Shown one piece after another: positions 32,175 through 36,440 of a stretch of DNA of 64,000 nucleotides. The notes beneath the pieces are model-generated. The model was not told where the DNA came from and searched no databases. It was given only the letters and a program-made list of their open reading frames with translations. The stretch lies in contig NZ_JPRM01000055.1 in the NCBI RefSeq assembly GCF_000737695.1, forward strand, positions 1 through 64,000, given 5' to 3'. Position 1 is the stretch's first letter, and every line of letters starts with the position of its first letter. Both the position numbers and the translations under genes were made by a program. Origin of the DNA: Flavobacterium hydatis. Its GTDB lineage: Bacteria; Bacteroidota; Bacteroidia; Flavobacteriales; Flavobacteriaceae.

Positions 32175-33299
32175 ATGAAACATATTAAATTCATAGTATT
32201 AAATCTAGTAATAGTATTGGGCTGTAGCGTAATGGTGCAAGCTCAAAATAATTATAAAAACTGGAGTGATATTATTCGCAAAAGCGATGCGGCTTGGTTT
32301 GCAACGCCCGAAGCTCAAGCCATAGCCGAGAACGTGTTATTGTACCAACGCAACATTGGTGGATGGCCAAAGAATATCGAAATGCAGAAACCACTATCTG
32401 ATACTGAAAAACAAAGTCTAATCGCACTAAAAAGTGACCTACATGATATCACAACTGATAATGGAGCGACCTGTCAGGAAATGCTTTTTCTGGCAAAAAT
32501 GTACAAGCAAAAACCAGACGAAAGATATAAAAAAGCATTTCTTTTAGGACTGGATTATTTGCTAGAAGCACAATATGACAATGGAGGATGGCCACAATTT
32601 TATCCCTTAAAAAAAGGATATTATACCCACATAACGTACAATGACGATTCGATGTTTCATATCCTATCGATACTAAAACAAGTAGCAGAAACCTCTGATT
32701 ATAACGGTATTCCTATATCGCAAGATTATGTTACCAAAGCCAAAACAGCTTTTGATAAAGGAATAACCTGCATCATAAAAACACAATACAAACAAAACGG
32801 AGTTTTAACGGCTTGGTGTGCGCAACATGACGAAAATACTTTGGCTCCAGCCAAAGCAAGAGCTTACGAATTACCATCTTTAAGCGGGAAAGAATCGGCT
32901 AAAATAGTATTGTTGCTAATGTCTATCGATAAACCATCACCAGAAGTAATTACAGCTGTAAAAAGTGCTTGTGCATGGTTTGAAAAAACGAAGATTACAA
33001 ATCTCGAAGAAAAACGAATTCTAAATGATGCGGGGAAAATTATCGATAAAAAAATGATTCCAGCTACAAATGCTTCACCAATTTGGGCAAGGTTTATGGA
33101 GCTAGACACTAACGAACCATTTTTTTGTGATAGAGATGGAGTCAAAAAGAAATCTCTGGATGAGATAGGAGCAGAACGAAAAAACGGATACGCTTGGTAC
33201 ACCGATGAGCCAAAAGAACCTTTAAAAAAATACCCAAGTTGGGAGAAAAAATACGCTTTTGAAAAAAGCGAAAAAAAAAAGCTGAATCCGAAAACGTAA
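32175..33299 (+). CDS. PL10 pectate lyase
   Basis: This 374-residue pectate lyase of the PelA/Pel-15E (PL10) family has a signal peptide ending V-Q-A-Q near residue 24. Family hallmarks are N-I-G-G-W-P-K-N near 56, D-N-G-A-T near 93, the G-G-W-P-Q-F-Y-P motif near 137 followed by H-I-T-Y-N-D-D near 152, and W-A-R-F near 300. It cleaves de-esterified polygalacturonate by beta-elimination. The reading frame ends with a Lys/Glu-rich tail (E-K-S-E-K-K-K) encoded by ten As at 33271-33280 and stops 16 bases later. The sequence just downstream encodes, in the -1 frame, a CE8 pectin methylesterase domain without its own start. PL10 and CE8 were therefore probably one polypeptide, or still become one by frameshifting at A AAA AAG (33275-33281). 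Confidence 0.92.
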   Translation: MKHIKFIVLNLVIVLGCSVMVQAQNNYKNWSDIIRKSDAAWFATPEAQAIAENVLLYQRNIGGWPKNIEMQKPLSDTEKQSLIALKSDLHDITTDNGATCQEMLFLAKMYKQKPDERYKKAFLLGLDYLLEAQYDNGGWPQFYPLKKGYYTHITYNDDSMFHILSILKQVAETSDYNGIPISQDYVTKAKTAFDKGITCIIKTQYKQNGVLTAWCAQHDENTLAPAKARAYELPSLSGKESAKIVLLLMSIDKPSPEVITAVKSACAWFEKTKITNLEEKRILNDAGKIIDKKMIPATNASPIWARFMELDTNEPFFCDRDGVKKKSLDEIGAERKNGYAWYTDEPKEPLKKYPSWEKKYAFEKSEKKKLNPKT

Positions 33300-34156
33300 T
33301 TACCGTAGCCCAAGATGGATCTGGTGATTTTAAGTTAATTCAGGAAGCGATAAATGCGACCAAAGCTTTTCCCTATGAGAAAGTAACGATTCATATTAAA
33401 AACGGAACGTATTATGAAAAAATAAGGATTCCTGAATTTAATAACAACATTTCGTTAATTGGCGAGAGCAAAGAAAAGACAATCATTACCTACGATGATT
33501 ATTTTGGGAAAATGAATTTAGGCAGAAACAGCACTTTTTACACCTACACAATGTTGGTAGAAGGAAATGATTTTTCGGCATCAAATTTAACGATTCAAAA
33601 TTCATCTGGCGATATAGGACAAGCAGTTGCTTTATCGATTATGGGCGACAGAGCGTATGTTTTTAATTGTAATATATTAGGAAACCAAGATACATTATAC
33701 GCATCGGGAAACAACTCAAGGCAATATTTTAAAGATTGTTATATCGAAGGAACAACCGATTTTATTTTTGGGAAAGCCACAGTATTTTTCGAGAATTGCC
33801 AAATTCATAGCCTTAAGAATTCATATATAACAGCAGCATCAACACCCGAAGGAATAGCGTTTGGGTTTGTGTTTAAAAATTGTAATCTAACCGCTGATAA
33901 AAATGCAACACAAGTTTACCTAGGAAGACCGTGGCGTATTTATGCCAAAACCGTTTTTATAGAGTGTAAAATGGGAAATCATATTGTACCACAGGGCTGG
34001 GAAAATTGGTCTAAACCCGAAGCCGAAAAAACTGCTTTTTATGCCGAATATAATTGCAGTGGTGAAGGATACAAACCAAAAGATAGAGTTACATGGTCGC
34101 ATCAATTAAGTAAAAAAGAGGTTAAAAAATATACGGTTGGGAATGTTTTTTTTTAA
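33263..34156 (+). CDS. CE8 pectin methylesterase domain without its own start (frame -1 to PL10)
   Basis: The frame is open from 33263 to 34156, but its first ATG is at 33512, inside the domain. Translation from 33281 gives A-E-S-E-N-V-I-T-V-A-Q-D-G-S-G-D-F and so the complete CE8 N-terminus. Starting at 33512 would lose about 75 residues of the beta-helix. Catalytic motifs are intact: G-N-Q-D-T-L-Y, G-T-T-D-F-I-F-G-K (catalytic Asp) and Y-L-G-R-P-W (Arg). Intact motifs argue against an old pseudogene. The simplest readings are a C-terminal half made by -1 slippage on the A10 run, a recent single-base change, or a sequencing error in a homopolymer. The enzyme would demethylate pectin and produce the substrate of the adjacent pectate lyase. 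A signal peptide exists only if it is joined to PL10. Confidence 0.8.
   Translation, partial: KKRKKKAESENVITVAQDGSGDFKLIQEAINATKAFPYEKVTIHIKNGTYYEKIRIPEFNNNISLIGESKEKTIITYDDYFGKMNLGRNSTFYTYTMLVEGNDFSASNLTIQNSSGDIGQAVALSIMGDRAYVFNCNILGNQDTLYASGNNSRQYFKDCYIEGTTDFIFGKATVFFENCQIHSLKNSYITAASTPEGIAFGFVFKNCNLTADKNATQVYLGRPWRIYAKTVFIECKMGNHIVPQGWENWSKPEAEKTAFYAEYNCSGEGYKPKDRVTWSHQLSKKEVKKYTVGNVFF
33271..33281 (+). promoter_or_regulatory. Candidate -1 frameshift site, A10 G
   Basis: In the PL10 frame the codons read GAA AAA AAA AAG, so the heptamer A AAA AAG at 33275-33281 is in the exact phase of the E. coli dnaX slippery site. A shift of -1 there enters the CE8 frame at GCT (33282 read from base 33281 onward). 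The PL10 stop lies at 33297-33299. The run of ten As would also allow RNA-polymerase slippage. No convincing downstream stem-loop was recognised by eye. Confidence 0.55.
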
Positions 34157-34208: not shown

Positions 34209-34728
34209 TGTAGAGACGCACCGCAGTGCGTCTACGTAATATAGGTTTACCCATGATGTAACCCCAAACTTGTCTTTCTGACGCAGGAAGAATCTCCGTG
34301 AGTAGCTCGACAATTTAGGACAAGTTTGTGTTAGTTTCTTGTGGAGACCCTTCGTTCCTCAGGGTGACAAGATTGGGGAGAAAAGGAACAAAGGTTTGGA
34401 GCCACAAAGGTTTTCTGTAGAGACGCAGCGCAGTGCGTCTACGCAATATAGGTTTCTCTTAAGAACAAAGGTTCTGAGAGGTAATAGGTTCTAATTATAG
34501 AGTATTTACTCTATTTTATACATAAAGTAATCCATGTCAGGCTGAGCGGAGTCGAAGCCCGTATGCCCTTCGACTCCGCTCAGGGTGACAAAATTGAGCA
34601 CAAAGGTTTTCCGTAGAGACGCACCGCAGTGCGTCTTAGATATAATACCAGTAGTCATCAAGTCTAAGAAATCTAACATTCTAAGCAGTCTAAAAATCTA
34701 AGTAGTCTAAAATTCTAAGCAATCTAAA
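34209..34728. repeat. Repeat-rich spacer between CE8 and GH28 2
   Basis: This 574-bp spacer has no gene. It holds three copies of the GACGCACCGCAGTGCGTC hairpin (34209-34236, 34416-34444 with an AGCGCA variant, 34611-34637). There is a long hairpin with mismatched arms at 34269-34371, whose loop is shared with 11729-11774. A GAGCGGAGTCGAAG / CTTCGACTCCGCTC inverted repeat is at 34536-34590. AAAGGTTC-type words fill the gaps. Three 17-bp repeats at 34681-34731 run up to the GH28 start codon. Confidence 0.82.
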
Positions 34729-36133: not shown

Positions 36134-36440
36134 CTGTAGAGACGCACCGCAGTGCGTCTACGTAATATGGGTTTGTCTAAAAAGTAGGGAGGAAAGAAGA
36201 AAAAGAACAAAGAAAGGAACAAAGGGGCAAAGGTTTTCTGTAGAGACGCACCGCAGTGCGTCTACGTAATATGGGTTTATTATAATGTAATCATATGTCA
36301 GGCTGAGCGGAGTCGAAGCCCCGTACGCCCTTCGACTCGGCTCAGGGTGACAAGACTGTGGAGAAGAGGACAAAGATTCAGAGGAACAAAGGAACAAAGA
36401 CACAAAGGTATTCCGTAGAGACGCACCGCAGTGCGTCTAC
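36134..36440. repeat. Repeat-rich spacer between GH28 2 and CE12
   Basis: This gene-free stretch holds three further GACGCACCGCAGTGCGTC hairpins (36134-36162, 36239-36266, 36413-36440) and a second copy of the GAGCGGAGTCGAAG inverted repeat at 36297-36352. Between them are purine-rich GGAACAAAGG words like those at 34157-34200 and 55500-55570. Confidence 0.82.

Follow-up and report, generated by a model that had tools for sequence, protein, structure and literature searches.

A candidate transcriptional slippage site between a PL10 pectate lyase and a CE8 pectin methylesterase in Flavobacterium

Among the closest described counterparts of the system considered here, in which a pectate lyase gene and a startless pectin methylesterase domain of Flavobacterium hydatis meet at a run of ten As, is dnaX of Thermus thermophilus, where transcriptional slippage on an A9 run gives both tau and gamma (PMC5009743, PMC1088944) and stops lie in both non-zero frames (PMC5009743). 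Two homologous genes, tssM1 of Citrobacter rodentium (A11) and tssM3 of Yersinia pseudotuberculosis (A9), show slippage of roughly 15-25% with opposite outcomes, a longer product in one and a shorter product in the other, and the slippage sites cited in the same paper range over about 15-55% (PMC4256274). The transposase of Roseiflexus IS630 carries a U5C5 motif that loses one base, with an adjoining nascent stem-loop described as its enabling context (PMC5009743), and dnaX of Escherichia coli provides the ribosomal counterpart, a -1 shift at A_AAA_AAG. According to PMC1088944, selection against such runs becomes visible at a length of nine in a large share of bacterial genomes, and function was tested there by open reading frame (ORF) layout together with run conservation; Traverse and Ochman describe insertions as predominant in homopolymeric runs (PMC5574713). 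The DNA analyzed here, called the window, is a stretch of 64,000 nucleotides comprising bases 1-64,000 of contig C55 in a 5.88-Mb genome of 99 contigs.

In the window, the ORF list gives a PL10 pectate lyase of 374 amino acids on the forward strand at 32175-33299, with an N-terminal segment that reads like a signal peptide. It matches the Pfam profile PF09492 from position 1 to 290 of 292 (E 1.2e-110), indicating a full-length PL10 domain, and also pectate lyase structures (1r76, E 1.2e-59). A CE8 pectin methylesterase of 291 amino acids follows on the same strand at 33281-34156, in the -1 frame relative to the lyase, and its match to PF01095 is nearly full-length (profile positions 2-293 of 298, E 3.7e-76). 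When it is aligned with pectinesterase 1gq8, Gln113, Gln135, Asp136, Asp157, Arg225, and Trp227, which we take to be the catalytic residues of that enzyme, are all identical, in agreement with a sequence-only reading of this DNA that had described the catalytic motifs as intact. The same reading had called the domain startless, and no ATG, GTG, or TTG is indeed present in the CE8 frame of the window ahead of the conserved N-terminus: the frame is open from 33263 to 34156 behind a stop at 33260-33262, and the earliest of these codons in it is an ATG at 33512. The CE8 domain has no signal peptide of its own, and genome-wide it is the single match to PF01095, just as the lyase is the single match to PF09492.

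The two frames meet at an A10 tract (33271-33280, forward strand) followed by G33281. The lyase frame reads GAA AAA AAA AAG at 33270-33281 and then CTG AAT CCG AAA ACG TAA, its stop (33297-33299) lying five codons past the codons of the run and ending a lyase-only product; coordinates and phase had thus been placed correctly in the sequence-only reading. Its expectation that 9 or 12 As would restore one continuous frame was mistaken, since those lengths lead to TGA and the frames are joined by 11 As (one gained) or 8 (two lost). The tract is the sole A/T 10-mer in the window on either strand, compared with an average of 9.3 in dinucleotide shuffles.

We consider it probable that A10 is a programmed transcriptional slippage site that gives lyase alone together with a lyase-CE8 fusion. 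RNA polymerase would slip on the tract, possibly aided by an abutting hairpin, and produce mRNAs with varied A counts, of which those with ten As would encode the secreted 374-residue lyase alone, and those with 11 (or 8) a single secreted lyase-CE8 protein of about 660 residues. The fusion would be the sole evident route by which the only CE8 of the genome could be made and exported. In related species, the polarity would be reversed, with an in-frame fusion carrying A9-A10 from which slippage would yield lyase alone. The occurrence of slippage, RNA polymerase as its agent, and the product ratio are all inferred from sequence. The junction has known sequence marks of a slippage site, namely an A/T run of about nine or more at a frame junction and avoidance of such runs in other genes (in a local sample), and both ORF layout and run conservation, the test applied in PMC1088944, are found there. 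The sequence-only reading had also proposed slippage that makes both products from one mRNA, and the layout supports this product logic; the machine that it assumed was probably the wrong one, RNA polymerase being favored over the ribosome.

Like Thermus dnaX, the window gene has a sense-strand A-run of 9-10 bases and predicted products with a shared N-terminus, and the stops in both non-zero frames of the Thermus gene resemble those of in-frame relatives with at least nine As. In Thermus dnaX, the long product is templated, whereas in the window clade it is the short one; the former gene serves a DNA polymerase, and the latter encodes secreted pectin enzymes with slippage deduced from sequence. 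Both polarities occur among homologues here as they do in tssM, but in PL10-CE8 a single genus shows both of them repeatedly, and a separate enzyme domain makes up the C-terminal part. Slippage was shown by cDNA mass spectrometry for tssM1 and by blots and reporters for the tssM genes (PMC4256274), whereas in PL10-CE8 it is proposed from the arrangement of frames and runs.

The sequence-only reading had raised the possibility that the A-run and the out-of-phase layout recur in related genomes, and alignment of the junctions, with one genome per species, bears this out for close relatives. A10G in the same phase, with a lyase stop no more than five codons away, is present in L002/L031 (Flavobacterium sp. 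KMS), L003/L032 (F. frigoritolerans), L005/L033 (F. shii), and L006 (G276). The sixth member of the clade, L004 (G284, a single contig), shares A10 and the phase and has a second, upstream frame break at a T-run; it was counted in the census and tree described below and excluded from clean counts. Exactly ten As are found in all six members, even though the gain of a single A would put the two domains in one frame. The stop in the lyase frame lies 3-5 codons past the run in all five clean members and 8 codons past it in L004, and the sequence immediately after the run varies among species while run and phase stay constant. At about 2440-2460 on the fusion strand of L004, the lyase break falls at a T7 that is T8 in L006, and A5 replaces A6 before A10; the single-contig assembly may contain a homopolymer error here, or the gene may truly be decaying.

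The CE8 domain is under strong purifying selection. Its ratio of nonsynonymous to synonymous substitution rates (dN/dS) is 0.038-0.078 at dS 0.47-1.59 (15 pairs, six clade members), similar to that of in-frame control CE8 domains (0.029-0.086, 21 pairs), and the lyase gives 0.033-0.089 (10 pairs, five species). None of the six clade members has an ATG, GTG, or TTG before the domain in the CE8 frame. For a domain under such constraint that has neither a standard start nor a signal peptide, the simplest assumption is that its translation continues from the lyase. At the other end of the domain, a T9 run (34146-34154) closes the CE8 frame, and the window protein ends ...GNVFF; the CE8 tails of L002 and L003 are longer (e.g., ...NVFSKVQRFF), and taking one T from T9 gives a similar tail in the window, so that T9 may be a second homopolymer setting the CE8 C-terminus.

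For a wider census of the junction, 180 loci were merged from a genus search (398 genomes from a larger group, 136 with a match), 80 named loci, and 70 fetched regions; the last were the junction-spanning matches without a locus among the matches listed, lyase-only and CE8-only matches being left aside, as were L111-L140, which are junction matches in genomes already matched. Removal of identical CE8 copies left 136 distinct loci, seven of which lack an adjacent lyase match and carry no phase. The lyase lies directly upstream in the other 129, where the junction is in frame in 112, in phase 2 (CE8 in -1) in 16, and in phase 1 in one; every one of the 112 in-frame fusions is open through both domains. 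All 17 out-of-phase junctions contain a run of at least nine As (A9 in seven, A10 in nine, and A11 in one), as do 45 of the 112 in-frame linkers, and 16 of the 17 need one A gained (or two lost), a direction in keeping with the prevalence of insertions described for homopolymeric runs (PMC5574713). These 17 comprise the six rows of the window clade (A10G); L012 and L176, with A10G at other linker positions; L197 (A10T); seven rows with TGG-A9-C, labeled group 2 here, whose CE8 dN/dS is 0.050-0.136; and L061 (A11, the other phase), from a metagenome assembly. Group 2 is named for its shared out-of-phase A9, which therefore holds by definition. In a FastTree phylogeny, which together with thinning handles kinship among species only in part, the in-frame or out-of-phase label needs at least seven changes, forced by starred branches, and six of the group 2 rows form one starred out-of-phase subclade with A9 in all six.

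PL10 was found in 25 of 299 genomes in a family search, and outside Flavobacterium, comparison of coordinates and open frames by eye gave 14 fusions that are in frame and a single out-of-phase junction, in G702. This member of another genus is in phase 2 with A9G, has a stop one codon past the run, and needs one added A (or two lost). Lyase and CE8 are neighboring but separate genes in G060 and G1007, which were rejected as slippage junctions; the separate CE8 ORF of G1007 has a standard start and, as read from sequence, a signal-like N-terminus.

Evidence for the reversed polarity comes from stops close behind the in-frame runs. In in-frame linkers with at least nine As, the first stop lies at a median of 3 codons in the deletion frame and 1 in the insertion frame, and all 45 have one within 20 codons in both; in those with fewer than nine, the medians are 10 and 6 codons, with 61 and 56 of 67 within 20. 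This was compared with synonymous shuffles of the codons after the run, with CE8 thinned by identity at 90, 85, and 80%. At 85% (17 rows), stops after the longer runs lie at means of 4.0 and 3.65 codons versus 8.06 and 6.04 in shuffles (p 0.0025 and 0.0135); at 90% (31 rows), none of 2000 shuffles reaches the observed values, and thinning to 80% (7 rows) gives p values of 0.019 and 0.048. Linkers with fewer than nine As showed no close-stop effect at 85% (20 rows; p 0.69 and 0.32) or at 90% (range over both levels, 0.30-0.84), nor at 80%, apart from a borderline 0.0575 in the insertion frame. With stops close behind in both other frames, a slipped mRNA of an in-frame fusion with at least nine As would encode only the lyase, so that one device seems to be present in the genus in both polarities.

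The background against which these runs stand was taken from 308 ATG-start ORFs of at least 150 codons (316 kb) in the window and the flanks of L031-L110, a local set consisting mostly of neighbors of this gene in relatives. It holds a single run of nine or more As versus 44 expected under synonymous shuffling, while A7 occurs as often as expected (264 versus 262, ratio 1.01) and A8 at a ratio of 0.66. Triple lysine is written AAA AAA AAA in 1 of 52 cases in the background and in 33 of 39 in in-frame linkers. A cost that begins at 8-9 As is more in keeping with the RNA:DNA hybrid within RNA polymerase than with a ribosomal heptamer. The sole background run is an A11 at base 631 of an L066 ORF (52-751), which might be another slippage site.

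Directly 5' of the A-run in the window, folding predicts a perfect 7-bp RNA hairpin, CGCUUUU-GAA-AAAAGCG (33254-33270, forward strand), that ends at the base before the run. Its energy is -5.2 to -5.8 kcal/mol (-5.8 with flanks in the window), and it is kept in all six clade members, with 6 bp in L004 and a G.U pair in L005. Against synonymous shuffles, p is 0.005-0.010 in five members and 0.07 in L005; in L012 (p 0.05), a hairpin is perhaps present. As a general feature of these junctions, the hairpin was rejected, since in-frame fusions with at least nine As have a mean z of -0.17, with 4 of 45 at p<=0.05, and group 2 is inconsistent. It therefore seems specific to the window clade and shared by descent, and it could possibly act as an enhancer or pause site for slippage. 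Its position recalls the stem-loop adjoining the IS630 motif (PMC5009743), although the window hairpin is AU-rich and weak.

Several observations weigh against transcriptional slippage at these junctions. The linkers show no excess of long runs once codons are shuffled synonymously (45 in-frame linkers with at least nine As versus 47.3 expected), so avoidance there is lifted only, not reversed, and 67 of the 112 in-frame fusions lack such a run, so slippage is not required in every species. In-frame fusion genes also contain six A9 runs outside the linker (209 kb) versus the single long run of the 316-kb background; two lie in the L007 lyase, and the other four, in L025, L078, L177, and L181 near +751/+727 of CE8, seem to occupy the same spot near the C-terminus (EAEKKT). 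The 13-row clade around group 2 mixes both phases, eight junctions being out of phase and five in frame, and its runs vary in length between under 7 and 10. As proof of selection, codon conservation within the run turned out too weak: of the conserved codons elsewhere in the lyase, 11 of 34 for Lys and 11 of 20 for Glu vary, so the four invariant codons of the run are not rare. In-phase A_AAA_AAC in short runs is somewhat low in the background (45 versus 57.9, sd 8.3, ratio 0.78). The U5C5 motif of IS630 loses one base (PMC5009743), whereas the window A10 must gain one or lose two. Finally, A_AAA_AAG is in phase at the window run (33275-33281, forward strand), and ribosomal shifting could contribute.

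A dnaX-type programmed -1 ribosomal frameshift at this heptamer, which would make two proteins from an unedited mRNA, was the leading mechanism in the sequence-only reading and is, in our assessment, unlikely, though it remains the strongest of the alternatives. The heptamer sits exactly in phase in the window, as in E. coli dnaX, with a stop soon after, and among the 17 out-of-phase junctions A_AAA_AAG is in phase in seven and A_AAA_AAA in the other ten, the latter also being named among ribosomal slip sites in PMC3711429. The fragment at 33253-33330 is predicted to be more stable than most of its shuffles (z -2.28, 5 of 200), but it starts inside the 5' hairpin and takes in both the run and a local hairpin absent from a five-sequence consensus. 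Folding downstream of 33281, to which the sequence-only reading had pointed, gave nothing comparable: the 54 downstream bases fold no better than shuffles in any of five clade members (z -0.53, -0.01, 1.01, 0.32, and -0.23), the downstream fold of the window is not significant against shuffles (z -0.66), and its small downstream hairpin is missing from the five-sequence consensus. Unlike E. coli dnaX, the window also has no well-placed Shine-Dalgarno-like stimulator; none was seen at the right distance when it was read by eye, the GGGAG about 30 bases before the heptamer being too far, and its A-run is longer. A heptamer needs just 6-7 As, whereas all 17 runs have 9-11, and the base after the run is G, C, or T, with A_AAA_AAG in phase in only the seven junctions already mentioned. 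Moreover, in-phase A_AAA_AAG in background runs shorter than nine is not avoided (43 versus 31.6 expected); A_AAA_AAA and A_AAA_AAT stand at 0.94 and 0.88 of expectation.

Phase variation, in which the run would change length in the DNA and switch CE8 on or off in subpopulations, appears improbable. Homopolymers are described as hypermutable (PMC2831843), runs in both phases exist in the genus, and the mixed 13-row clade is what such switching might produce; yet the ten As of all six window-clade members and the nine of all six rows in the group 2 subclade argue against free switching, which should scatter lengths, and the close stops after in-frame runs fit slippage during expression, as proposed here with RNA polymerase. 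Still less credible is a broken gene, whether through misassembly or through recent loss of one base, with CE8 a dying pseudogene in this strain, an alternative that the sequence-only reading had kept. The assembly is a 99-contig draft, 112 of 129 relatives are in frame, and L004 demonstrates that such lesions or errors exist, but relatives from separate assemblies share the phase and A10, and CE8 is as constrained as in-frame controls, making a sequencing error or fresh lesion unlikely. Re-initiation past the lyase stop at a non-standard codon, for which an ATT just past that stop in the window CE8 frame and a TTG or GTG upstream of the domain in 3 of 17 out-of-phase loci (L109, L185, and L197) could speak, has equally little credence, as all six window-clade members lack the standard codons, the ATT is missing in L006, the product would have no signal peptide, and the separate CE8 of G1007 possesses both a standard start and a signal-like N-terminus.

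The surroundings of the gene resemble a pectin locus, with Pfam matches to two GH88 proteins, a GH28, a DUF4861, a BD-FAE-type esterase, and a GDSL esterase. Six near-palindromic repeats of GAGACGCACCGCAGTGCGTCT, one of them mismatched, lie in intergenic DNA at 34213-34637 and 36139-36439, flanking the GH28 gene, and none occurs in shuffles; by reading of their sequence, they look like repetitive extragenic palindromes (REP).

The PL10-CE8 junction is most likely a case of transcriptional slippage, a known kind of system, in a gene for which searches of open-access text brought to our notice no account of slippage or frameshifting. In its main text, the frame-transition survey PMC3711429 contains none of the words "pectate", "pectinesterase", and "Flavobacterium". 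Automatic annotation would probably split such a gene into a lyase and either a fragment lacking a start codon or a pseudogene.

The methyl esters that CE8 enzymes remove are a hindrance to pectate lyases; a fusion would couple the two activities, and free lyase would act on stretches already demethylated. More tentatively, and with somewhat less than even confidence, the PL10-CE8 linker may be regarded as an evolvable slippage dial throughout Flavobacterium and in one or more further genera, where the gain or loss of a single A would decide whether the fusion or the free lyase is made by default, and close stops, plus a hairpin in some lineages, would keep both products made. If this broader view is true, the balance between free lyase and tethered methylesterase would be controlled genus-wide and repeatedly re-tuned. 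If slippage at the junction itself is true, one gene would provide a bifunctional secreted pectinase as well as a lyase-only form in several lineages, with its polarity switched repeatedly, and these loci would form a natural series for studying how slippage sites originate, the scarcity of runs of at least nine As in other genes, and whether bacteria gain from having free lyase and tethered methylesterase together.

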